From NCBI RefSeq assembly GCF_036227265.1, contig NZ_CP109446.1:4780001-4844000 (forward strand): 64,000 bases of DNA. The letters run 5' to 3'. Shown here one piece after another: positions 17,431 through 52,815 of this stretch (position 1 is its first letter; the number at the start of each line of letters is the position of its first letter). The position numbers were made by a program, and so were the translations under genes. Below the pieces are notes generated by a model, which saw only the letters and a list, made by a program, of their open reading frames with translations, made no database searches and was not told where the DNA came from. This DNA comes from Streptomyces sp. NBC_01476 (GTDB taxonomy: Bacteria; Actinomycetota; Actinomycetes; Streptomycetales; Streptomycetaceae).

Positions 17431-17448
17431 TTGTGCACGCGTTCACAA
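17431..17448. promoter_or_regulatory. Rex operator (ROP)
   Basis: TTGTGCACGCGTTCACAA matches the Rex consensus TTGTGAAnnnnTTCACAA at all but one position. A TAGCCT-like -10 follows within a few bases, and the rex start is 77 bases downstream. Rex binds such sites when NADH is low and leaves when NADH rises, so rex–hemACD should be autoregulated by the NADH/NAD ratio. Confidence 0.92.
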
Positions 17449-18235: not shown

Positions 18236-19587
18236 GTCTTCTCGTCGTCGGTCTGAGTCACCGCACCGCGCCGGTCACCGTGCTGGAGCGCGCCGCCCTG
18301 GAGGACGGCGCGCGGGCCAAGCTGCTCCTGGACGCGCTCGCCGCGGAGCCCGCCACCGAGGCGGCGGTGCTGGCCACCTGCAACCGGATAGAGCTGTACG
18401 CGGACGTCGACAAGTTCCACGCGGGCGTCGCCGAACTGTCCACCCTGCTCGCCCAGCACAGCGGGGTCGGCCTCGACGAGCTCACCCCGTACCTGTACGT
18501 GCACTACGAGGACCGGGCCGTCCACCATCTGCTCTCGGTGGCCTGCGGACTGGACTCCATGGTGGTCGGCGAGGGCCAGATCCTCGGCCAGATCAAGGAC
18601 GCGCTCGCCGTCGGCCAGGAGCTGCACACCGCGGGCCGGCTGCTCAACGACCTCTTCCAGCAGGCACTGCGGGTCGGCAAGCGGGCCCACTCCGAGACCG
18701 GCATCGACCGGGCCGGCCAGTCACTGGTCACCTTCGGCCTGGCCCAGCTCGTCCCCGCCACCGGCGACGTACGCGGCAAGCGGGCGCTGGTGGTCGGCGC
18801 CGGGTCCATGTCGTCGCTGGCGGCCACCACCCTGGCCCGCGCCGGGGTCGCGGAACTCACCGTCGCCAACCGCACGGTCGAACGCGCCGAGCGGCTGGCC
18901 CGCACGCTCACCGAGCAGGGCACACCGGCCCGCGCGGTCACCATGTCCGAGGTGCGGGCGGAACTCGCCCGCGCCGACATCGTCGTCTCCTGTACCGGCG
19001 CCACCGGTCTGGTGCTGACCGCCGACGACCTGCGCGCCGCGCTGGCCGCCCGGCCGGCGGCGGGACCGGTGGCGGTACTCGACCTGGCGATGCCACGGGA
19101 CATCGACGGCGCCGCCGGTGACCTGGACGGCGTCACCCTGGTGGACATCGAATCGCTCGCCGCGGCCTCCGCGGACGCGCCCATGGCCGCCGACGTGGAT
19201 CAGGTGCGGGCGATCGTCTCGCAGGAGGTGGAGGCGTTCGGCGCGGCCCAGCGGGCGGCCCGGATCACCCCCACCGTGGTGGCGCTGCGGGCGATGGCCG
19301 CCGATGTCGTGGCGGGTGAACTTTCCCGGCTCGACGGTAGGCTGCCCGGTCTGAACGACAAGCAGCGCGCGGAGATCACCCAGACCGTCCGCCGTGTCGT
19401 CGACAAGCTCCTGCACGCGCCCACCGTGCGGGTCAAGCAGCTCGCCGGCGAGCCCGGCGGTGCCGGGTACGCCGACGCGCTGCGGGAACTCTTCGACCTC
19501 GACCCGCTGGCGGTCGCCGCCGTCAGCCGGGCCGACACCCCGGGCTCAGCCCAGGGCACCGCAGAACCGAATCGAGGGCGGGCATGA
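18232..19587 (+). CDS. hemA: Glutamyl-tRNA reductase
   Basis: A 451-aa enzyme that reduces glutamyl-tRNA(Glu) to glutamate-1-semialdehyde with NADPH, the first step of C5 tetrapyrrole synthesis. The catalytic Cys50 lies in ATCNRIELY. The N-terminal recognition domain contains GLSHRTAPV and GEGQILGQIKDA, the NADPH domain has VVGAGSMSSLAATTL, and a C-terminal helical dimerisation domain ends the protein. It overlaps rex upstream and hemC downstream by ATGA, so the genes are translationally coupled. Its product feeds hemL, which is not in this window, then HemB and HemC here. Confidence 0.97.
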   Translation: MSLLVVGLSHRTAPVTVLERAALEDGARAKLLLDALAAEPATEAAVLATCNRIELYADVDKFHAGVAELSTLLAQHSGVGLDELTPYLYVHYEDRAVHHLLSVACGLDSMVVGEGQILGQIKDALAVGQELHTAGRLLNDLFQQALRVGKRAHSETGIDRAGQSLVTFGLAQLVPATGDVRGKRALVVGAGSMSSLAATTLARAGVAELTVANRTVERAERLARTLTEQGTPARAVTMSEVRAELARADIVVSCTGATGLVLTADDLRAALAARPAAGPVAVLDLAMPRDIDGAAGDLDGVTLVDIESLAAASADAPMAADVDQVRAIVSQEVEAFGAAQRAARITPTVVALRAMAADVVAGELSRLDGRLPGLNDKQRAEITQTVRRVVDKLLHAPTVRVKQLAGEPGGAGYADALRELFDLDPLAVAAVSRADTPGSAQGTAEPNRGRA

Positions 19588-20567
19588 ACACCCCCAGCGG
19601 CCGCGACGAACCACACCCGGCGCCACTACGGCTCGGCACCCGCCGCAGCAAACTCGCCATGGCGCAGTCCGGGATGGTCGCCGCCCAGGTGACGGAAGTC
19701 ACCGGGCGGCCCGTCGAACTGGTCGAGATCACCACCTACGGCGATGTGTCGCGGGAGAGTCTGGCGCAGATCGGCGGTACCGGAGTCTTCGTCTCCGCAC
19801 TGCGCGACGCGCTGCTCTCCGGCGAGATCGACTTCGCCGTGCACAGCCTGAAGGACCTGCCGACCGCCGACCCGCAGGGTCTGGTGCTGGCCGCGATCCC
19901 GGTCCGCGAGGACCCGCGGGACGCGCTGGTGGCCCAGGACGGCACGGGTTTCCTGGCGCTGCGGGACGGCGCGAAGGTCGGCACCGGCTCACCGCGCCGG
20001 ATGGCCCAGCTCAACGCGTGGGCACGGTCACACCACCGGACGATCGAGACCGTCCCGATCCGTGGCAACGTTGACACCCGCATCGGGTACGTTACTTCCG
20101 GCAAGCTCGACGCGGTCGTGCTGGCCGCCGCCGGGCTGAACCGTATCGGCAGGCTCGCCGAGGCGAGCGAGCTGATCGATGCCGACGCCGTACTGCCCGC
20201 CCCCGGTCAAGGGGCGCTGGCCGTGGAATGCGCCGCCTCCAACCCGGAGCTGGCCGCACAGCTCGCCGAGCTGGACGACCCGTTCACCCGGGCCGCCGTG
20301 ACCGCAGAGCGATCCCTGCTCGCCGCCCTCGAGGCCGGCTGCTCCGCCCCGGTGGGGGCGCTGGCCGACCTTGTGGACGACGGGCAGAATTCCGAGCTGC
20401 GCCTGCGCGGCGTCGTCGGCACCACCGACGGCACCACGCTGGTGCAGATGTCCATCACCGGTCCCGTACCGGCATCGGACGACGAAGCGCGAGCCCTTGG
20501 CCGCGAACTCGCCGTGCAGATGCTCGCCAAGGGTGCGGCCGGTCTTATGGGGGAGCGCACACCTTGA
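19584..20567 (+). CDS. hemC: Porphobilinogen deaminase (hydroxymethylbilane synthase)
   Basis: A 327-aa enzyme that joins four porphobilinogens into hydroxymethylbilane. It shows the standard family signatures: LGTRRSKLAMAQ, HSLKDLPT with catalytic Asp91, TGSPRRMAQ, RGNVDTR, LPAPGQGALAVE, and EAGCSAPVG with Cys253 to hold the dipyrromethane cofactor. It overlaps hemA by 4 bases, and its last codons overlap the TTG start of the hemD fusion. A second, divergent copy lies near 50 kb; this one is the canonical pathway enzyme. Confidence 0.97.
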   Translation: MNTPSGRDEPHPAPLRLGTRRSKLAMAQSGMVAAQVTEVTGRPVELVEITTYGDVSRESLAQIGGTGVFVSALRDALLSGEIDFAVHSLKDLPTADPQGLVLAAIPVREDPRDALVAQDGTGFLALRDGAKVGTGSPRRMAQLNAWARSHHRTIETVPIRGNVDTRIGYVTSGKLDAVVLAAAGLNRIGRLAEASELIDADAVLPAPGQGALAVECAASNPELAAQLAELDDPFTRAAVTAERSLLAALEAGCSAPVGALADLVDDGQNSELRLRGVVGTTDGTTLVQMSITGPVPASDDEARALGRELAVQMLAKGAAGLMGERTP

Positions 20568-40770: not shown

Positions 40771-41070
40771 TGAGCGGGCCCCTTCCTGCGCTTTGCCTGT
40801 TCATGGGTCGGGTTCACCCGGCCGTGGGGGTGCCGGCGGTAAACCTTTGGCGCGCACGAGCGAGCCCTGGACACAATGTCTACCGCACGCCCCACGGATT
40901 GTGCCCGCCGGGGCGGTTCTACGGGTGATGCGCGCCGCTTTCCGGCCGCTTGTTTCCGGCTTGTCCGTCCGGCGTCCAGCTGGTCGTCTTTCGGGTCGTC
41001 CGTCCGGTCGTCCATCCGTCCGTCCGGTCGTCATTCCGGTCGTCATTCCGGCTTCTCCAGGGGGAACGTC
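40771..41070. repeat. rtcB upstream region with a GTCCGTCCG microsatellite
   Basis: This 300-base gap contains no gene. From about 40961 to 41051 it is a run of imperfect GTCCGTCCGGTCGTC-like units that ends just before the AGGGGGA ribosome-binding site of rtcB. It lies in the probable rtcB leader, where copy number could alter expression. The lipoprotein promoter must lie in the left part. Confidence 0.65.
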
Positions 41071-42327
41071 ATGTCGTACACCGAGGTGCCCGGGGTCCGG
41101 GTACCGATCCGCATGTGGGCCGACCCGGCCACCGTCGAGGGCGAGGCGATGCGGCAGCTGCGTAACGTCTCCTCGCTGCCGTGGATCAGGGGGCTGGCCG
41201 TCATGCCCGACGTCCATTACGGCAAGGGCGCCACGGTCGGCTCGGTGATCGCCATGCAGGGCGCGGTCTGCCCGGCCGCGGTCGGCGTCGACATCGGCTG
41301 CGGGATGAGCGCGGTGAAGACCTCGCTGCGGGCGGGCGACCTGCCGGCCGACCTCTCCCGGCTGCGGGGCAAGATCGAACAGGCCATTCCGGTCGGGCGC
41401 GGTCGGCACGAGGACCCGGTCGACCCGGGCCGGCTGCACGGTCATCCGACGGCCGGCTGGTCCGACTTCTGGTCCCGTTTCGACGGGCTGGCCCAGCCGG
41501 TGCGGTTCCGCGCGGAGCGCGCCGCCCAGCAGATGGGCACGCTCGGCTCCGGGAACCACTTCGTCGAAATCTGCCTGGACACGGAGGACGCGGTCTGGCT
41601 GATGCTGCACTCGGGGTCGCGGAACATCGGCAAGGAGCTGGCCGACCACCACATCGGCGAGGCGCAGAAGCTGCCGCACAACCAGGGCCTGGTCGACCGC
41701 GACCTCGCCGTCTTCATCTCCGACACCCCGCAGATGGCCGCCTACCGCAACGACCTCTTCTGGGCCCAGGAGTACGCCAAGCACAACCGCGCGGTCATGA
41801 TGTCCCTCCTCCAGGACGTCGTCCGCGGCGAGCTGCGCAAGGCCCGCCCCACCTTCGACCCGGTCATCTCCTGCCACCAGGAGGACGCCGAAGGTCAGAT
41901 GAGGACGGTGGAGTACCGCCCCGGTGTCATCAGTTGTCACCACAACTATGTCAGCGAGGAGCGGTACGACGGGATGGACCTGCTGGTGACCCGGAAGGGC
42001 GCCATCAGTGCGGGCTCGGGGGAGTGGGGGATCATCCCGGGTTCGATGGGGACGGAGTCGTACATCGTCCGGGGGCTGGGCAACGCCGCGTCGTTCAACT
42101 CGGCCTCGCATGGGGCCGGCCGCAAGATGTCGCGTTCCGCGGCCAAGCGGAAGTTCGGCGTCCGGGACCTGGAGGACCAGACGCGGGGCGTGGAGTGCCG
42201 CAAGGACTCCGGCGTCGTGGACGAGATCCCGGGCGCGTACAAGCCGATCGGCAAGGTGATCGAGCAGCAGCGGGACCTGGTCGAGGTCGTCGCCAAACTC
42301 AAGCAGGTCATCTGCGTCAAGGGCTGA
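41071..42327 (+). CDS. rtcB: RNA 3'-phosphate/5'-hydroxyl ligase RtcB
   Basis: A 418-aa RtcB ligase that uses GTP and manganese to join 2',3'-cyclic phosphate or 3'-phosphate ends to 5'-OH ends. It has MPDVHYGKGATVGSV, the metal-site VGVDIGCGMS (Asp74 and Cys77), GSGNHFVEI, LHSGSRNIG, SCHHNYVSEERYDG, and SHGAGRKMSR, whose His takes the guanylate. The start is ATG after AGGGGGAACGTC. It is complete; two partial copies of its 3' end lie downstream. A terminator follows. RtcB repairs RNA cut by endonucleolytic toxins, which is notable with a toxin gene next door. Confidence 0.95.
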   Translation: MSYTEVPGVRVPIRMWADPATVEGEAMRQLRNVSSLPWIRGLAVMPDVHYGKGATVGSVIAMQGAVCPAAVGVDIGCGMSAVKTSLRAGDLPADLSRLRGKIEQAIPVGRGRHEDPVDPGRLHGHPTAGWSDFWSRFDGLAQPVRFRAERAAQQMGTLGSGNHFVEICLDTEDAVWLMLHSGSRNIGKELADHHIGEAQKLPHNQGLVDRDLAVFISDTPQMAAYRNDLFWAQEYAKHNRAVMMSLLQDVVRGELRKARPTFDPVISCHQEDAEGQMRTVEYRPGVISCHHNYVSEERYDGMDLLVTRKGAISAGSGEWGIIPGSMGTESYIVRGLGNAASFNSASHGAGRKMSRSAAKRKFGVRDLEDQTRGVECRKDSGVVDEIPGAYKPIGKVIEQQRDLVEVVAKLKQVICVKG

Positions 42328-43273: not shown

Positions 43274-43439
43274 GGCGCGGGCCGCGCACGGCCTCCAGCG
43301 CAGACACCCACCCTGCTTCTCCCACGGAGCCTGCCGTGCCGACTCCAGGGCTGAGCCGGTGAGCCACTACGGCCCCGGCGAGATGCCGGAGAGGAGCGAC
43401 CGGACGCCCTTCGTACTTGATGGAGGCCGTGATGTGCGG

Positions 43440-43830
43440 GCACCACAACTACGTCTCCGAGGAGCGGTACGACGGGATGGACCTGCTGGTGACCCGTAAG
43501 GGCGCGATCAGCGCGGGCTCGGGGGAGTTCGGGATCATCCCGGGTTCCATGGGCACGGAGTCGTACATCGTGCGCGGCCTCGGCAACGTGTCCTCCTTCA
43601 ACTCGGCCTCCCACGGCGCGGGCCGGAAGATGTCGCGCTCGGCGGCCAAGCGGAAGTTCGGCGTCCGCGATCTGGAGGAGCAGACGCGTGGCGTCGAGTG
43701 CCGCAAGGACTCCGGCGTGGTGGACGAGATCCCGGGCGCGTACAAGCCGATCGGCAAGGTGATCGAGCAGCAGCGGGACCTGGTGCAGGTGGTCGCCAAG
43801 CTGAAGCAGGTCGTCTGCGTCAAGGGGTGA
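43440..43830 (+). pseudogene. Second copy of the rtcB 3' end
   Basis: This stretch encodes residues about 290–418 of RtcB again (HHNYVSEERYDGMDLLVTRKG to the final VCVKG) with roughly 90% identity at DNA level. It keeps HGAGR but lacks the N-terminal two thirds that carry the metal site. Homology begins abruptly at CACCACAACTA and continues past the stop through the duplicated terminator. An ATG 23 bases upstream could start a 137-aa fragment, but activity is not expected. It marks the right end of the toxin–antitoxin cassette. Confidence 0.88.
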
Positions 43831-46199: not shown

Positions 46200-46703
46200 A
46201 TGCCGTCGGTTGTCGGACTGCTGGAACAGCACGAGGTTGCTGCTCGTCGTCGGGTCGACGGGCTGCGGGAGGAGGCTGATCGGATCCAGGCCGAGCTGGC
46301 CGAGGCCGAGCAGGAATGGCAGGAGTGGTCGGTCGCCCGCAGGCGAGTCGACGCGGTGCTGGCTTCCGGCGGCGATGACCAGGCGGAAGCCTCCCAAAGC
46401 TCGCGGGATGCGGTGCAATCGAGGTCACAGGTGCCTGTGTGGCGCGAAGGGCTTGCCTGTTCGGTCCTGTCGGTGGACTACCAGCGGATCGTGCAGGCAC
46501 TCGCCGACCGGTCCCGGCTTCATCAAGGGCCCTTGACTTGCCAGGAGATGGCCGCGGTGTTCGGGATGGACGTGGTGCCGGCGCGGGTGGAGGCCTTGCG
46601 GGCGAAGGCGAAACGCCTGGTCGCGCGGGGATGGCTGACCGAGCCCTCACCGGGCCAGTTCACGCTGGCGAAGGGTGTGGCCGGGCCAGTCGGCGGGTCA
46701 TGA
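46200..46703 (+). CDS. IS-borne accessory protein with coiled coil and winged helix
   Basis: A 167-aa protein inside the IS, opposite to the transposase and overlapping its 3' end by 44 bases. Residues about 5–50 form a charged coiled coil (LEQHEVAARRRVDGLREEADRIQAELAEAEQEWQEW); residues about 95–155 form a helix-turn-helix-like region (LTCQEMAAVFGMDVVPARVEALRAKAKRLVARGWL). The ATG has GGGGAGG 5 bases upstream. It is not a transposase. It may regulate transposition or be a passenger; I recognise similar genes in streptomycete IS elements but know of no function. Confidence 0.78.
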   Translation: MPSVVGLLEQHEVAARRRVDGLREEADRIQAELAEAEQEWQEWSVARRRVDAVLASGGDDQAEASQSSRDAVQSRSQVPVWREGLACSVLSVDYQRIVQALADRSRLHQGPLTCQEMAAVFGMDVVPARVEALRAKAKRLVARGWLTEPSPGQFTLAKGVAGPVGGS

Positions 46704-47577
46704 GCAGGGTCATCGACCAGTAGACGATCGCCTCCGCGCTGGTGGTGCGGCGTTCGTAGTCGCGTGCCAGCCGGCGGGTGCGCATCAGCCAGGCGTTGGT
46801 GCGCTCAACGATCCACCGCTTGGGCAGGACCACGAAACCCTTCTGGTCGTCGCTGCGTTTGACGACCTGCAGGACCAGCGCGAGGACGGCCAGGCAGTGC
46901 TCGACGAGGCTGCCGGTGTATCCGCCGTCTGCCCAGACCAGGACCAGACGGTGATGCGCCTCGGCCACCCGCTGGAGCAGGACCTTCGCGGCGGTGCGGT
47001 CTCCGACGTCCGCAGCGGTGACCATCACGCCCAGCAGCAGCCCGAGACTGTCGACCACCAGGTGCCTTTTGCGGCCGTTGATCAGCTTCCCGCCGTCGAA
47101 GCCGCGGCTGTCCGAGCCCACCACGGCGTCGGCCTTGACCGACTGGGAGTCGATCACGGCGGCCGTCGGCTCGATGTCCCGCCCGGCACGGGTGCGGACC
47201 CGGTCGCGCAGCCGGTCGTGGAACTCCCCGATCAGGCCGCGGTCGCGCCAGCGGCGGAAGAACGCGTAGACCCGGTCCCACGGCGGGAAATCGGCCGGCA
47301 TCGCGCGCCACTTGATTCCGTTGTCGACCAGATACCGGACCGCGTCCAGTATGGCCCGGTGGCAATACGCCTCCGGCTGCCCGCCGCGGCCCCGCATCCA
47401 GCCCGGCACCGGCAGCAACGGCCGGACCACCTTCCACTCCTCGTCCGTCATGTCCGACGGATAACGCGGCTGCCGGGCCCCGTTGTCGGCGGCGTTTCCG
47501 AACCGGTGTGCCAGGCAGTCACACCCCGGAGTGACCGAACTGGACGGCCCAGCCATCGACACGGAACACTCCAACAC
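46660..47577 (-). CDS. IS5-family transposase
   Basis: A 305-aa DDE transposase. After an N-terminal DNA-binding region (DMTDEEWKVVRPLLPVPGW, KWRAMPADFPPWDRVYAFFRRW) the catalytic Asp lies in AAVIDSQSVK, the second Asp in LVWADGGYTG and the Glu in WIVERTNAWLMRTRRLARDYE. The start is GTG with AGGAGG 5 bases upstream; a shorter start at MTDEEW is possible. It is a single uninterrupted frame, unlike the two-frame IS427 group. The gene is intact, so the element may still be active. Confidence 0.93.
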   Translation of the reverse strand: MLECSVSMAGPSSSVTPGCDCLAHRFGNAADNGARQPRYPSDMTDEEWKVVRPLLPVPGWMRGRGGQPEAYCHRAILDAVRYLVDNGIKWRAMPADFPPWDRVYAFFRRWRDRGLIGEFHDRLRDRVRTRAGRDIEPTAAVIDSQSVKADAVVGSDSRGFDGGKLINGRKRHLVVDSLGLLLGVMVTAADVGDRTAAKVLLQRVAEAHHRLVLVWADGGYTGSLVEHCLAVLALVLQVVKRSDDQKGFVVLPKRWIVERTNAWLMRTRRLARDYERRTTSAEAIVYWSMTLLMTRRLARPHPSPA

Positions 47578-47724
47578 CGGGGCCTCCTGACGTTGTTCGT
47601 TGATTCGACACCATCGAACTGTTCAGAAGGCCCCACCCTTATGCACCGACCATGCCGTCACCACCCAAACGGGAACCCCGGTTCGAAGCCCACTCCCCAA
47701 GGCCGGAACGACAACAGCAACTTA

Positions 47725-48719
47725 TGCCCGGCCGCCTCAGCCCTGGCGGGATTGCCCACCCGGTCCTGGACGATTGCCGTCAGCGCGTGCAACTCGGCCG
47801 GCCCGTAGAACGTCGCCCAACTCGGCCGCGGCACCGCCGAATCTGCCTTCCCCAGAGCCACTTCGGCGTGGCCGAGAGACCGCAACGCTGCCTGGCGGTC
47901 CATCAGCATGGAGTGCCCGATGGCAGTGCGGACGTGGGCAAGGGAAGCGAAGAAGGGGTCGCGACGGGCAATGGTGTTGCTCTGCGCCGCGAGGGCCGCG
48001 TCCACGGCTTGGGCGAAGTTTCCGCGTTCTCGGGCCAGCATGGCCACCGAGATCCAGACGCGCAGTTCTGCCGTGGGGTCGTTGGCCATGCCTGCGAGAT
48101 AGAGCGCACGTTCCAGGTGCTGCTGGGCCTGGTTCGGGTGGCGGGCGTCGATCGCCGACCAGGCCGCGGTGGCTGTGTAGTCGGCGGCCACGCTGAACAG
48201 CCGCTGCCGGATGCGTTGAGAGGCCGCCGACTTCTGGAAAGCCAGGGCCTGCGCCGCTCCCGCCAACGCGGTCTGTTCGAGAGTCTCGTGACCGCCCCGG
48301 TCCTGGTCGAGCAGGGCCAGACCATCCAGTCCGTTGCGGAGCCGGATCACTTCTGAGGTTCCTACAGCGGTCGGCCTGCCGCCGGGCATCGGAGCCACGA
48401 TGGCGGCTGTCGTGCCGGTGGTGGCGGTGAGGAATTCGCGGCGCCTCACAGGCTGCTCCGGTTCGTCGGCGGAACTATGTGTGCCCGCCCGGGCAAAGCC
48501 CAACTTCTCGGCGGTACACCCGAATACTGCCCGCAGCGCCTCGCGCTGACGGGGGTGAGGCCAGCGGGTTTTTCCGGTCAGCCAGTGCCGAACTGTCCGG
48601 TCGCTGACTGTCCCGTCGTGGCCGTGCTCGCGTAGGTAGCCGTTCACCGCCTCGGCCAGCTCGGCCTGAGTGAAGCCCGCCTCGCGTAAGGCGCTGATGA
48701 GGACTCGGTTCTCCTCCAC
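47725..48719 (-). pseudogene. HTH/TPR regulator, 5' fragment before the IS
   Basis: This fragment encodes the first 330 or so residues of a regulator. An N-terminal helix-turn-helix (EENRVLISALREAGFTQAELAEAVNGYLREHGHDGTVSDRTVRHWLTGKTRWPHPRQ) leads to a linker and tetratricopeptide-like repeats (AAWSAIDARHPNQAQQHLERALYLAGM, LARERGNFAQAVDAALAAQ). It stops where the IS inserts, after EAAGHK; reading on into the IS adds about 20 foreign residues. A GTG start at 48719 is assumed, with in-frame codons further upstream. It is divergent from the small-protein/NUDIX/hemC2 operon and may once have controlled it or GNAT. Confidence 0.9.
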
Positions 48720-48962
48720 TGACCAAACGTAGCCACAGGGTCCGCATCGCCAGAGGCGAACGACCGGAATTTCCGGCTGGGCCGACCGCATGCGGGAGGA
48801 ACTTTTCCTCCTGCGCAGGTACCAGCTGTCGTTCACTCAACTACGGACGCGGTAACGGAGACCTCGTCGTCTCCGAGTTGGACAGGCTGACCGAGCGCTG
48901 GGGAATCGACCGGTTGCCGTTCGGCAAGGGGGTCCGGGGTGTCCTGAAGGGAGAACCGACGA

Positions 48963-49154
48963 ATGACGCGCAACGGAGCGGCCTGGGTGGGCGACGAAGT
49001 AAGGGACGAGAACGCCGAGCGGGAGGGCATCGTGACAGATGTCCGGGGCGGCCGGTATCGGCTCCGCGCCCTCACAAGGCCCGGGGAGTGGGCGGCCGAT
49101 TCGTCGGAACGGCTCACCGTCACCGTGCCGCTGGAACGCGGAGTCGGCCGATGA
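48963..49154 (+). CDS. Small protein upstream of the NUDIX gene
   Basis: A 63-aa soluble protein, MTRNGAAWVGDEVRDENAER onwards, ending VPLERGVGR. It looks like a small beta-barrel (WVGDEVRDENAEREGIVTDVRGGRYRLRA) similar in feel to KOW- or SH3-like domains, but I cannot name a family. The ATG has GGGAGA upstream, and its stop overlaps the NUDIX start by ATGA. The coupling with NUDIX and hemC2 argues that it is real. Upstream bases 48840–48962 contain an open frame in another phase, with no supported gene. Confidence 0.72.
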   Translation: MTRNGAAWVGDEVRDENAEREGIVTDVRGGRYRLRALTRPGEWAADSSERLTVTVPLERGVGR

Positions 49155-49630
49155 GTCCTGAGGGGCCGGCCTCCGGTCATCCGATCACAGCTTCGGTCCT
49201 CTTCACGGACGAGAACGACCGAATTCTCGTCGTCCATCCGGCTCGGCGCCCTGAAGGTCAATGGGCCCTTCCTGGCGGCCTTGTGGAGGCCGGGGAGTCC
49301 CCGGTGGAGGCCGCGCGGCGCGAGATCCAGGAGGAGTTGGGTCTCGCGACGGACATACGGACCACCGACTTGATGGCAGTCGAGTGGCTGGAGGCCGTGA
49401 CCCCCGGCCGCCGGGCCCGGCTCGCGCTCGTCTTCGCGGGTCCCCGGTTGTCCACAGCGGACGCTGAGGGGATTGTGCTGCAACGTCGCGAGATCACTCG
49501 CTGGGCCTGGGTCCGTCCGGATACGGCTCTGGAGATCCTGCACCCGCGTGTAGCCCGGCGCGTCCGCGGGCCGCTCCAACTCCCCGGATCAACGCTCTAC
49601 CTTGAGACCAGGAACGAGAGGACCCCATGA
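49151..49630 (+). CDS. NUDIX hydrolase
   Basis: A 159-aa protein with a complete Nudix box, G-LVEAGE-SPVEAARREIQEELG (GX5EX7REUXEEXGU), within a single domain; FTDENDRILVVHPARRPEGQWALPGG precedes it. It hydrolyses a nucleoside diphosphate linked to some other group. The start is ATG overlapping the small gene upstream by 4 bases, and its stop overlaps hemC2 by 4 bases, so the three are cotranslated. The substrate is unknown; the partnership with a tetrapyrrole enzyme is unusual. Confidence 0.9.
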   Translation: MSPEGPASGHPITASVLFTDENDRILVVHPARRPEGQWALPGGLVEAGESPVEAARREIQEELGLATDIRTTDLMAVEWLEAVTPGRRARLALVFAGPRLSTADAEGIVLQRREITRWAWVRPDTALEILHPRVARRVRGPLQLPGSTLYLETRNERTP

Positions 49631-50598
49631 ACAACTTCCCGGCCGACCGCACTCTGCGGATCGGCACCCGCAGCTCCCCGATGGCCCTGGCCCAGGCCCA
49701 TATGGTCGCGGACCTCCTGCGCAAAGAGGAGGCGGAGATCCAGGTCGAACTGGTGCCGGTGACCACCGAAGCGGACCTGTGGCAGGGGGACTTGGCTCAG
49801 CTCGGCGGCAAGGGTCTGTACGTCAAACAGATCGACACCATGCTTCAGCGTGGAGAAGTGGATATGGCGGTCCACTGCGTCAAGGATGTGCCGGGCGACC
49901 AACCCATGCCCCAGGGCCTGGTCTTCGCCGCTTACCTGCCGCGCGACGACGTACGCGACGTGCTCCTGTTCCCGGAAGGCTCCGAGATGCAGAGGCTCGA
50001 CGACCTTCCGCCCGGTGCCGCCGTTGCCACCTCGGCTGTTCGCCGCAAAGCTCAGGTCAATCGTGTGCGACCGGACCTCAATGTCGTTCGGGTACGCGGA
50101 GCTGTCGGCACGCGCATCGAGAAACTCGACGGGAAGAAGAAGATCGACACCAGGCTGGACGCCATGATCCTGGCGACCTCCGGCCTGGAGCGGCTGGGGC
50201 TGTCCCACCGAGGTCGCCAGGTCTTCACCGTGCAGGAGATGCTCCCGGCTGTCGGTGCCGGAGTTCTCGGCTTGGAGTGCCGTCACGACGACGGCTCCGT
50301 GGCCGGTCTGCTGAGTCGTCTCAACCATGACAGGACGATGACCGAGGTCACCGCCGAGCGCGTGATGCTCCACGGCCTGAGGGGCCACTGCAACAGCCCC
50401 ATCGCCGGTCACTGCGTCACCGAGCCGGACGGTCAACTCTCCCTGCGGGGGATGGTCTTCTCCCGGGACGGCGCCAAATTCGTCCACGCCCACATCTGGG
50501 GCGAGAGCAGCAACGACCCCGGCACTCTCGGCGCTCGCGTCTCCGCGGAACTGCTGCGCCAGGGGGCGCGGGGGATCATTGCCGGCAATCCGTACTGA
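49627..50598 (+). CDS. Second porphobilinogen deaminase (HemC paralogue)
   Basis: A 323-aa HemC homologue, clearly different from hemC at 19584. It keeps the key residues: Arg in IGTRSSPMALAQA, Lys86–Asp87 in HCVKDVP, Arg139–Arg140 in TSAVRRKAQ, Arg in RGAVGTR, and a cofactor Cys255 in RGHCNSPIAG. Other invariants have changed: HS to HC before KD, RGN to RGA, GQG to GAG and EGGC to LRGHC. It could assemble a bilane as HemC does, or use a related substrate. It is cotranscribed with NUDIX (ATGA overlap). Whether it is haem-related or part of a special pathway is open. Confidence 0.87.
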   Translation: MNNFPADRTLRIGTRSSPMALAQAHMVADLLRKEEAEIQVELVPVTTEADLWQGDLAQLGGKGLYVKQIDTMLQRGEVDMAVHCVKDVPGDQPMPQGLVFAAYLPRDDVRDVLLFPEGSEMQRLDDLPPGAAVATSAVRRKAQVNRVRPDLNVVRVRGAVGTRIEKLDGKKKIDTRLDAMILATSGLERLGLSHRGRQVFTVQEMLPAVGAGVLGLECRHDDGSVAGLLSRLNHDRTMTEVTAERVMLHGLRGHCNSPIAGHCVTEPDGQLSLRGMVFSRDGAKFVHAHIWGESSNDPGTLGARVSAELLRQGARGIIAGNPY

Positions 50599-51627: not shown

Positions 51628-52815
51628 ATGAAACGTCGCACCAAGCTCCTCGCGGTGGCCACTGCCGCAGGCGTCGCCGGAACGCTCAGCGTGCTCGGCA
51701 ACAGCAGTGCCTCCGCGGCAACCGCGGGCCCCATCGTCGGGCTCGGCGGCAAGTGCGTCGACGTGGCCAGTGCGTCCACGGCCAACGGCACACACGTGCA
51801 GACGTACGACTGCAACGGCAGCAGCGCGCAGAACTGGACGGTCGGCAACTCCGACAACTCGATCCGGGCGCTGGGCAAGTGCATGGACGTGACCGGCGCG
51901 TCGACCGCCAGCGGCGCCAAGGTCCAGCTCTACGACTGCAACGGCACCGGTGCGCAGCAGTGGACCGTGAGCAACGGCGAACTGGTCAACACCGCGTCGG
52001 GCAAGTGCCTGGACGTCACCGACAAGTCCACGGCCAACGGCAACCAGCTCCAGATCTGGACCTGCACCGGGGCGTCCAACCAGCTGTGGACGCTGCCCGG
52101 CGGCAGCACACCTCCGTCCGGCGGGCTCAACACGTCGGTCGCGCCCGGCGGCAACTTCAACCTGTCGGTCTGGGAGCTGCAGGAGCCGGTGGGGTCGCCG
52201 GGCTCGCCGACCACGATCTCGTCGTCGCGGCTGCAGGGGGCGGGCGGCTTCCAGGACCAGTACTTCTACACCGACGGGTCCGACGGCGCGATGACGTTCT
52301 GGGCGCCGGAGAAGGGCGTCACCACGCCGAACTCCAACTACGCCCGGTCCGAGCTGCGGGAGATGAACACCAACGGCAGCGCCGCCGACTGGTCGCTGGC
52401 CGGTACGCACCGGCTCAACGCGTCGCTCCGCGTGGTGTCCGTGACGTCGAACGTCTGCGTCGGGCAGATCCACCTCGGCTCGGGCGGCACGTCCACCAAG
52501 CCGCTGATCGAGCTGTACTACCACTCCAACGGCGACATCGTGGCGGGCGTCGAGAACTCGCCCTCGGGCGGCCAGACGACGCACCCGGTGGGCCACGTCG
52601 CGGTCGGCACGAAGTGGAGCTACACGATCGGTGTCTCCGGCGGCAACACGATCGACCTGACGGTCAACGGCACCACCACGCACTACGCGATCCCGTCCTC
52701 CTTCAACCCCTACAAGCAGTACTTCAAGGCCGGTTCCTACAACCAGTCCTCCTCCGACAGCACCACCAACGGCGCCCGCGTCGCCTTCTACACCCTCACC
52801 GTCTCCCACAGCTGA
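51628..52815 (+). CDS. Secreted PL7 alginate lyase with a ricin-type module
   Basis: A 395-aa secreted enzyme. A signal peptide (about 1–30, ending SASA) is followed by a beta-trefoil ricin-type (CBM13) module (about 34–156) with three GKC(V/M/L)DV repeats and QNW/QQW/QLW ends. A short linker leads to a PL7 lyase domain (about 166–395) with all three hallmark motifs: RSELREM (240–246), QIH (280–282) and YFKAGSYNQ (365–373). It cleaves alginate or a related polyuronate by beta-elimination. The ATG start follows GGACC, and a DasR-like site lies 30 bases upstream. Confidence 0.93.
   Translation: MKRRTKLLAVATAAGVAGTLSVLGNSSASAATAGPIVGLGGKCVDVASASTANGTHVQTYDCNGSSAQNWTVGNSDNSIRALGKCMDVTGASTASGAKVQLYDCNGTGAQQWTVSNGELVNTASGKCLDVTDKSTANGNQLQIWTCTGASNQLWTLPGGSTPPSGGLNTSVAPGGNFNLSVWELQEPVGSPGSPTTISSSRLQGAGGFQDQYFYTDGSDGAMTFWAPEKGVTTPNSNYARSELREMNTNGSAADWSLAGTHRLNASLRVVSVTSNVCVGQIHLGSGGTSTKPLIELYYHSNGDIVAGVENSPSGGQTTHPVGHVAVGTKWSYTIGVSGGNTIDLTVNGTTTHYAIPSSFNPYKQYFKAGSYNQSSSDSTTNGARVAFYTLTVSHS

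Follow-up and report, generated by a model that had tools for sequence, protein, structure and literature searches.

HemC2, a second hydroxymethylbilane synthase homologue of Streptomyces, falls in an apparently undescribed GHC-type subfamily

Three kinds of known system offer points of comparison for a short gene run in Streptomyces sp. NBC_01476: the hydroxymethylbilane synthase (HMBS) HemC of Escherichia coli (1PDA, TIGR00212), the NUDIX hydrolases of family PF00293, and Streptomyces regulator cassettes with XRE regulators, HATPase genes and small proteins, to which we presume the surroundings of the run to be akin. The stretch analysed here, hereafter the window, comprises 64,000 nucleotides (G000:C1:4780001-4844000) of an 8.4 Mb genome, and Streptomyces and allied species are the closest named carriers of the gene under study, hemC2. 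Three plus-strand open reading frames (ORFs) at window positions 48963-50598 encode a 63-amino-acid (63-aa) protein (48963..49154), a 159-aa NUDIX hydrolase (49151..49630) and HemC2, a 323-aa HMBS paralogue (49627..50598), and the coordinates confirm the ATGA overlap at both junctions given in a preliminary description of this DNA. HemC2 shares with E. coli HemC the domains PF01379 and PF03900, the Lys83/Asp84 pair, the arginines and Cys242, but differs in carrying C81, A129, A151, A198, R239, H241 and N243 and in being an accessory gene outside the hem operon. It also differs from the housekeeping HemC of the window (plus strand, 19584..20567; assigned by TIGR00212 and its gene run), which lies in a rex-hemACDB run and has S81, Q198, G241 and Thr59, the last being the usual Lys59 in HemC2. 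The NUDIX protein shares the complete Nudix box of its family but falls below the curated cut-off of each NCBIfam model listed. The operon surroundings resemble the regulator cassettes in their 63-aa ORF family, HATPase remnant and divergent tetratricopeptide repeat (TPR) regulator, although the version in the window is truncated and is not conserved with HemC2.

Curated models assign HemC2 to the HMBS family. It scores 293.8 bits against the TIGR00212 hemC model (cut-off 164; housekeeping HemC 278.5 bits), exceeds the curated cut-offs of PF01379 (225.6 bits) and PF03900 (46.4 bits), both of which it matches over their full length, and retrieves E. coli HMBS 1PDA at a phmmer E of 9.7e-64; its identity to the housekeeping HemC of the same genome is 38%. 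With positions numbered as in E. coli (1PDA), the alignment shows Arg11, Lys59, Lys83, Asp84, Arg131, Arg132, Arg149, Arg155, Arg176 and Cys242 to be kept, which bears out the earlier account of an intact catalytic Lys-Asp pair, arginines and cofactor Cys. The substitutions are Ser81Cys, Ser129Ala, Asn151Ala, Gln198Ala, Glu239Arg, Gly241His and Gln243Asn, those at 81, 129 and 243 not having been named before. The motif swaps RGA, GAG and LRGHC noted earlier are present in HemC2, but the housekeeping enzyme of this genome has LEAGC and not the EGGC ascribed to it. Ser81, Gln198 and Asn151, replaced in HemC2 by C81, A198 and A151, are not required by the curated HMBS models, and it is on sequence grounds that HemC2 is filed as an HMBS. 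Both genes are under purifying selection, with NG86 ratios of nonsynonymous to synonymous divergence (dN/dS) of 0.06-0.37 in 11/11 computed pairs for HemC2 and of 0.13-0.36 in 7/8 pairs for NUDIX, the eighth being dS-saturated.

HemC2 belongs to a set of sequences that we term GHC-type, defined here by Cys or Ala at position 81, Ala or Ser at 198 and His241, together with a single clade in the tree; it has the residue pattern and lies in the clade. The three residues occur jointly in 72 of 74 GHC-type rows, two of which (L064 and L088) were assigned to the group after their residues were known, and in none of 50 other HMBS (13 housekeeping, 4 third-type, 30 phylum-wide controls, these being the best-scoring 30 matches, and 3 from other bacteria). 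The pattern is incomplete in one copy without its 5' part and in one degenerate copy that has lost Cys242. Conservation of the catalytic machinery is near complete: Lys83 and Asp84 are found in all 73 scorable rows, Arg131 and Arg132 in 74/74, Cys242, Arg149 and Arg155 in 73/74 each, and Arg176 in 72/74. Ser81, Gln198 and Asn151 are invariant across the 50 other HMBS sampled; Asn151 is lost in 30/30 rows of the HemC2 branch and changed in 1/44 other GHC-type rows (to Asp), and Ser129Ala occurs in 26/30 HemC2 rows. Before the HMBS alignment 18 duplicate 4-kb loci were removed, and L007 and L008, retained in an earlier alignment, were dropped from the residue-pattern count because they duplicate L092 and L093. 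An 81-row tree, inferred as a quick IQ-TREE run with SH-aLRT support alone and with long branches at L064, L088, L140 and others, recovers the GHC-type group (58 rows) and the HemC2 branch (29 rows) at SH-aLRT 99 each, and joins the HemC2 branch to nine GHC-type rows from other actinobacterial families (SH-aLRT 91). Among the open-access literature matches listed, no title or abstract reports that Streptomyces has a second HMBS or that an HMBS is paired with a NUDIX protein, in line with the earlier remark that no known pathway joins NUDIX to a HemC paralogue, and the GHC-type is a widespread, apparently undescribed actinobacterial enzyme subfamily. A GHC-type HMBS in G583 (L140) lacks the cofactor Cys and Arg149 (GHGGSPIA) and is possibly a non-catalytic offshoot.

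Work on human HMBS indicates where these changes fall, the human and E. coli positions being equated by matching motif spacing. According to PMC7907807, human Ser96 and Gln217 (E. coli 81 and 198) touch the propionate of ring C2/S2, Ser147 (E. coli 129) touches the acetate of ring C1, and S96F and Q217H/L/R are given as patient variants. PMC10577081 describes residues 257-263 around the cofactor Cys as a mobile cofactor-binding loop that shifts during elongation, and scores Ser262 as essential and Asn169 (E. coli 151) as tolerant of substitution. An AlphaFold2 model of HemC2 from 7 sequences reached a mean pLDDT of 47.4 and was not used, so that no geometry is claimed here; a metal or disulfide site formed by His80, Cys81, His241 and Cys242 was considered and dropped because no usable structure model was obtained.

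HemC2 matches at E <= 1e-60, a threshold well clear of the housekeeping genes in the genus sample, of which the best reaches 2.5e-51, were found in 280/394 Streptomycetaceae genomes and in 42/394 genomes of the class, 15 of these 42 lying outside Streptomycetaceae. Among the 35 genomes of the genus sample, HemC2 (at least 70% identity) is present in 10, a ~50% form in 8 and both in none (chance 0.046), short HMBS fragments in G010, G014, G022 and G032 being left out of the count. At the family level, 2 of 28 HemC2 genomes (G057, G356) carry another such match besides HemC2, whereas such a match is present in 252 of the 366 genomes that lack HemC2 (Fisher 7.5e-11, which ignores the kinship of the genomes and includes weaker matches that were not individually inspected). 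The 28 comprise 27 genomes at no less than 60% identity and G121, whose two matches were read as halves of a gap-split gene. Since HemC2 and the ~50% form rarely share a genome, this distribution suggests that they do the same job, as interchangeable genes would. GHC-type genes are accessory and variable in genomic place; the ~50% form was found on large plasmids too, where records with a listed feature annotate the GHC-type gene simply as hemC. HemC2 is, as first described, distinct from the full hemC at 19584, which sits in a rex-hemA-hemC-hemD-hemB run, but the genome holds three HMBS-family genes and not two, the third being at G000:C1:3532883-3533788 (L009), which had gone unnamed.

The NUDIX protein scores 73.5 bits against PF00293 (cut-off 21.1) and has a complete GX5EX7REUXEEXGU box (GLVEAGESPVEAARREIQEELG), and lies below the curated cut-off of all 20 NCBIfam models listed (MutT, NudI, NAD diphosphatase and others; best 37.8 vs 245 bits). 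Its association with hemC2 was surveyed in the 29 HemC2 loci whose 5' end is intact, leaving out L100, in which hemC2 lacks its 5' part. Eight loci have a full NUDIX gene immediately upstream of hemC2 (the window, L004-L006, L091, L095, L096 and L098, with a box missing its Gly in L091 and L095), four have a remnant consisting of the C-terminal part only (L090, L093, L094, L097), another four a short and weak match to the tail (L040-L042, L092; E 4e-6 to 0.06), and 13 no NUDIX sequence. NUDIX-like matches a few kb off, not adjoining, occur in L040, L042, L052 and L053. Both main HemC2 lineages contain remnants, and full copies are confined to the larger one (forks SH-aLRT 93 and 84); we infer an old pair in the HemC2 branch and repeated loss of NUDIX. 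In a search from the NUDIX side, 8 of the 10 best family matches (the window's own among them) lie beside hemC2, intact or broken, versus none of the next 20 NUDIX loci (1.5-kb flanks). In G400, a member of another family, the order is reversed: a NUDIX gene follows a GHC-type HMBS, its start overlapping the HMBS 3' end by ATGA. This is the sole strict Nudix box among 17 class contexts, two of them short, and an adjacency in 1/17 could have arisen by chance; we argue otherwise because the G400 protein is also the best class match to the window NUDIX outside its own genome, although the margin is small (5.3e-26, next 5.7e-25, with 9 candidates scored per genome). The proposed association therefore stands as one with an old clade neighbour (8/29 full, 4/29 remnants), but the link, real in history, is not obligatory, because a full NUDIX gene is missing at 21/29 HemC2 loci and no strict Nudix box was found within about 8 kb of the 35 ~50% forms (0/35). 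The pair decays both ways, since NUDIX stays beside a broken hemC2 in L236 (G140), where hemC2 has an internal loss, and in L241 (G103), where hemC2 has several breaks and NUDIX is apparently frame-broken too.

HemA is the usual control point of haem synthesis, and in the window the housekeeping genes follow Rex in the order rex (17327), hemA (18232), hemC (19584), hemD/cobA (20228) and hemB (22406). A putative Rex operator, TGTGCACGCGTTCACA, lies ahead of the Rex domain (17432..17447, plus strand) with 1 mismatch to the Rex operator consensus. At no more than 2 mismatches, for which 0.34 sites per window are expected by chance, the scan of the window returned sites at 17432 and 50940 only, and no operator-like site upstream of hemC2. 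A bypass of redox-controlled haem synthesis, as raised in the preliminary description, is consistent with the position of hemC2 outside the Rex-headed run and away from such a site, but would be weak if exerted by HMBS alone, because HemA is the usual control point and extra HemB or HemD occurs in few HemC2 genomes.

A putative hemC2 leader is contained in the 3' end of the NUDIX gene (49595..49626, plus strand), with CTCTACCTT at 49595-49603, which lines up with the -10-like CTAYCGT of relatives, followed by a Shine-Dalgarno-like GAGAGGA at 49616-49622. Several relatives without a full NUDIX gene show, by eye, a related leader of the kind TCTACCGTGAGAC...GGAACGAGAGGA before hemC2. The motif CTA(C/T)C(G/A)T is present near the start of the ~50% form in 27/35 loci versus 0.85% of random windows, 6-7 nt ahead of ATG in 26 of the 27, and looks like the -10 element of a leaderless gene. 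The strict promoter-like pattern was drawn by eye from the same loci, so that its counts, the 27/35 included, are not independent; it was matched in 7/29 HemC2 loci (random 0.43%) and 2/17 class loci (random 0.22%), and is lacking in the window itself. Transcription of hemC2 may thus come both by read-through from NUDIX and from a promoter of its own, the separate promoter in the window being only a suggestion. The ATGA overlaps were taken earlier to mean co-translation, but strict dependence on upstream translation is unlikely because 21/29 loci are without a full NUDIX gene and a similar leader is kept in several.

The 63-aa ORF has no Pfam or NCBIfam family match, and relatives were found at 5 loci in 4/34 other genus genomes, with no HMBS lying within 1.5 kb of any of them. 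A HATPase gene stands beside two of these five loci and an NsdA-like regulator beside one, the latter (in G011) being 66% identical to the NsdA-type regulator of the window. Correspondingly, a C-terminal remnant of a HATPase_c_2 (anti-sigma-like) gene lies 5' of the 63-aa ORF (48878..48958, plus strand; tblastn E = 1.3e-9 to the HATPase protein of L265, itself PF13581), next to a divergent NsdA-family TPR regulator (47658..48836, minus strand; NF053720, 248.3 bits, cut-off 75). In L004-L006, a DUF7848 gene and, by eye, XRE-type regulators are located upstream. We judge the 63-aa gene to be incidental, a piece of a regulator cassette that here has a truncated HATPase gene. Overall, the initial interpretation of a selected paralogue with coherent active-site changes is upheld, and the conserved three-gene unit is not.

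A pyrrole-based secondary product or diverted bilane, also envisaged at first, gains no support from the neighbours. No neighbour family occurs in more than 7/30 HemC2 contexts (the top one regulator-like) or 9/35 other Streptomycetaceae contexts, no conserved biosynthetic neighbours of the kind expected of a secondary-metabolite cluster were found in the contexts examined, and widespread families are mostly common to close species. With the 17 class contexts added, the widest family after hemC, among the best 25 clusters, reaches 9/82 contexts; ORFs were called with a simple codon-position filter that recovered hemC itself in 72/82 contexts and may miss small or odd genes, and most neighbours were not annotated. 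Hints of a diverted product come from ALAD-like and HEM4 (HemD-like) genes. In G614 (L186, G614:C24:144000-163000), from a non-Streptomycetaceae actinobacterial family, a GHC-type HMBS shares an ATGA overlap with an ALAD-like gene that has neither of what we take to be the Schiff-base lysines (1/82 contexts; 45% to the L262 copy). More than two HEM4 matches were found only in G027 (3) and G034 (4, two of them pieces), that is in 2/10 HemC2 genomes versus 0/25 other genus genomes, and far from hemC2; the extra matches are at G027:C1:7628924-7629649, G034:C5:467019-467744 and G034:C3:1221254-1221978. HemB is single in 31/35 genus genomes, including 9/10 HemC2 genomes, G025 being a HemC2 genome with a second HemB beside a third-type HMBS, and 7/10 HemC2 genus genomes have no extra HemB or HEM4. 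Third-type HMBS genes, the type to which L009 belongs, stand tail to tail with a divergent ALAD-like gene in G025 and G001 (L262 8284-10196; L263 8348-10247), in which both presumed Schiff-base lysines are gone and the Cys cluster is kept.

Based on these comparisons, we propose, with a probability of about 0.5, that HemC2 is an accessory second HMBS isozyme of the actinobacterial GHC-type subfamily with an ancestral, dispensable NUDIX partner. HemC2 would most likely still polymerise porphobilinogen (PBG) on a Cys-linked dipyrromethane and release hydroxymethylbilane from the shared PBG pool, being expressed outside the Rex-headed hemACDB run, and the rebuilt ring-C2 propionate pocket and cofactor loop would alter the kinetics, the stability or the oxidation tolerance of the enzyme and leave the reaction as it is. 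The NUDIX hydrolase would be an early, co-expressed and dispensable partner in the HemC2 branch, probably acting under the same condition as HemC2 and not on a tetrapyrrole. We favour an isozyme because the machinery is kept, selection is purifying, HemB is single in 9/10 HemC2 genomes and the two forms avoid each other. The comparisons establish family membership, the residue pattern, distribution, selection and the present states of NUDIX; what HemC2 does and under which condition, in what order NUDIX was gained and lost, and on what it acts are what we infer. Several points weigh against this proposal. The changes may alter the reaction, since the 50 other HMBS show no variation at Ser81, Gln198 and Asn151, and changes of human Ser96 and Gln217 are listed as patient variants (PMC7907807). 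The lysine-less ALAD-like overlap in G614 and the HEM4 extras of G027 and G034 hint at different chemistry. Furthermore, we know of no case for HMBS as a bottleneck, and for that reason a spare copy alone explains little.

If the reaction were altered, a GHC-type HMBS could take a modified pyrrole or build another chain length towards a non-haem oligopyrrole, with NUDIX in the same pathway. We consider this unlikely: the clade-specific changes do fall at the ring C2/S2 propionate and ring C1 acetate contacts (PMC7907807) and at the cofactor loop, and the G614 overlap, the HEM4 extras (2/10 versus 0/25) and a NUDIX partner recurring in another family with swapped order would fit, but the carboxylate-binding arginines are kept, the ALAD-like gene is in 1/82 contexts, the HEM4 extras are unlinked to hemC2, and neighbour families reach at most 7/30 HemC2 and 9/35 other Streptomycetaceae contexts. 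Rather less probable still is the wider proposal that GHC-type HMBS form the core of an unrecognised actinobacterial tetrapyrrole or oligopyrrole branch, in which the altered pocket and loop accept another pyrrole or chain length that small partners (NUDIX, lysine-less ALAD-like) make or process. We give similarly low weight to HemC2 as a tolerant spare that stands in when cofactor oxidation or a PBG-like antimetabolite inactivates HemC while NUDIX cleans nucleotides. This is conceivable because oxidation turns the HMBS cofactor into inactive forms, which mild reductants fail to reverse (PMC3949521); the changed residues surround ring C2, and GHC-type genes are accessory, variable in place and, as ~50% forms, also on large plasmids. 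However, no stress-linked regulator is conserved beside hemC2, no inhibitor gene was recognised nearby, and NUDIX passes no curated MutT-type cut-off.

The loss of several residues invariant elsewhere, and of the cofactor Cys and Arg149 in L140, would also suit a non-catalytic descendant serving as a PBG- or bilane-binding sensor or buffer, but since almost every row retains Lys83, Asp84, the arginines and Cys242, and dN/dS is low, we regard this as highly improbable. An explanation confined to NUDIX, and compatible with any of the others, is that its link to hemC2 is a by-product of regulator-cassette turnover, in which regulator, HATPase, DUF7848 and NUDIX genes shuffle together in Streptomycetaceae and one NUDIX gene came to lie upstream of hemC2. 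It can claim the DUF7848 and XRE-type genes upstream in L004-L006, the HATPase remnant and NsdA-type regulator in the window, and the missing or incomplete NUDIX at 21/29 HemC2 loci, where hemC2 often keeps its leader. We hold it to be a tentative minority explanation, given the remnants in both main HemC2 lineages (SH-aLRT 93, 84), the 8/10 best family NUDIX matches that adjoin an intact or broken hemC2 versus 0/20 next loci, and the overlap of the best class match outside its own genome with a GHC-type HMBS.

With a second HMBS of fixed active-site changes in ~70% of the sampled Streptomycetaceae genomes (280/394), the entry enzyme of all tetrapyrroles is duplicated and rebuilt in a major group of antibiotic producers. 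On the isozyme proposal, the modelling and engineering of haem supply in this group would change; should the product differ, a new metabolic branch would be opened. In either case the fixed GHC residue set is a simple, testable handle, also on the side-chain contacts that steer HMBS chain growth.

Elsewhere in the window, an IS4/5-type transposase (DUF4096 + DDE_Tnp_1 by domain matches; 46660..47577, minus strand) adjoins the 3' end of the NsdA-family regulator. Downstream of hemC2, positions 51628-52815 encode a single protein joining an alginate lyase domain to a ricin-type lectin domain. A full RtcB (RNA ligase) gene occupies 40876-42327, and a second, C-terminal RtcB piece lies 1.1 kb further on at 43420-43830, with a Fic/DOC-like ORF between the two.

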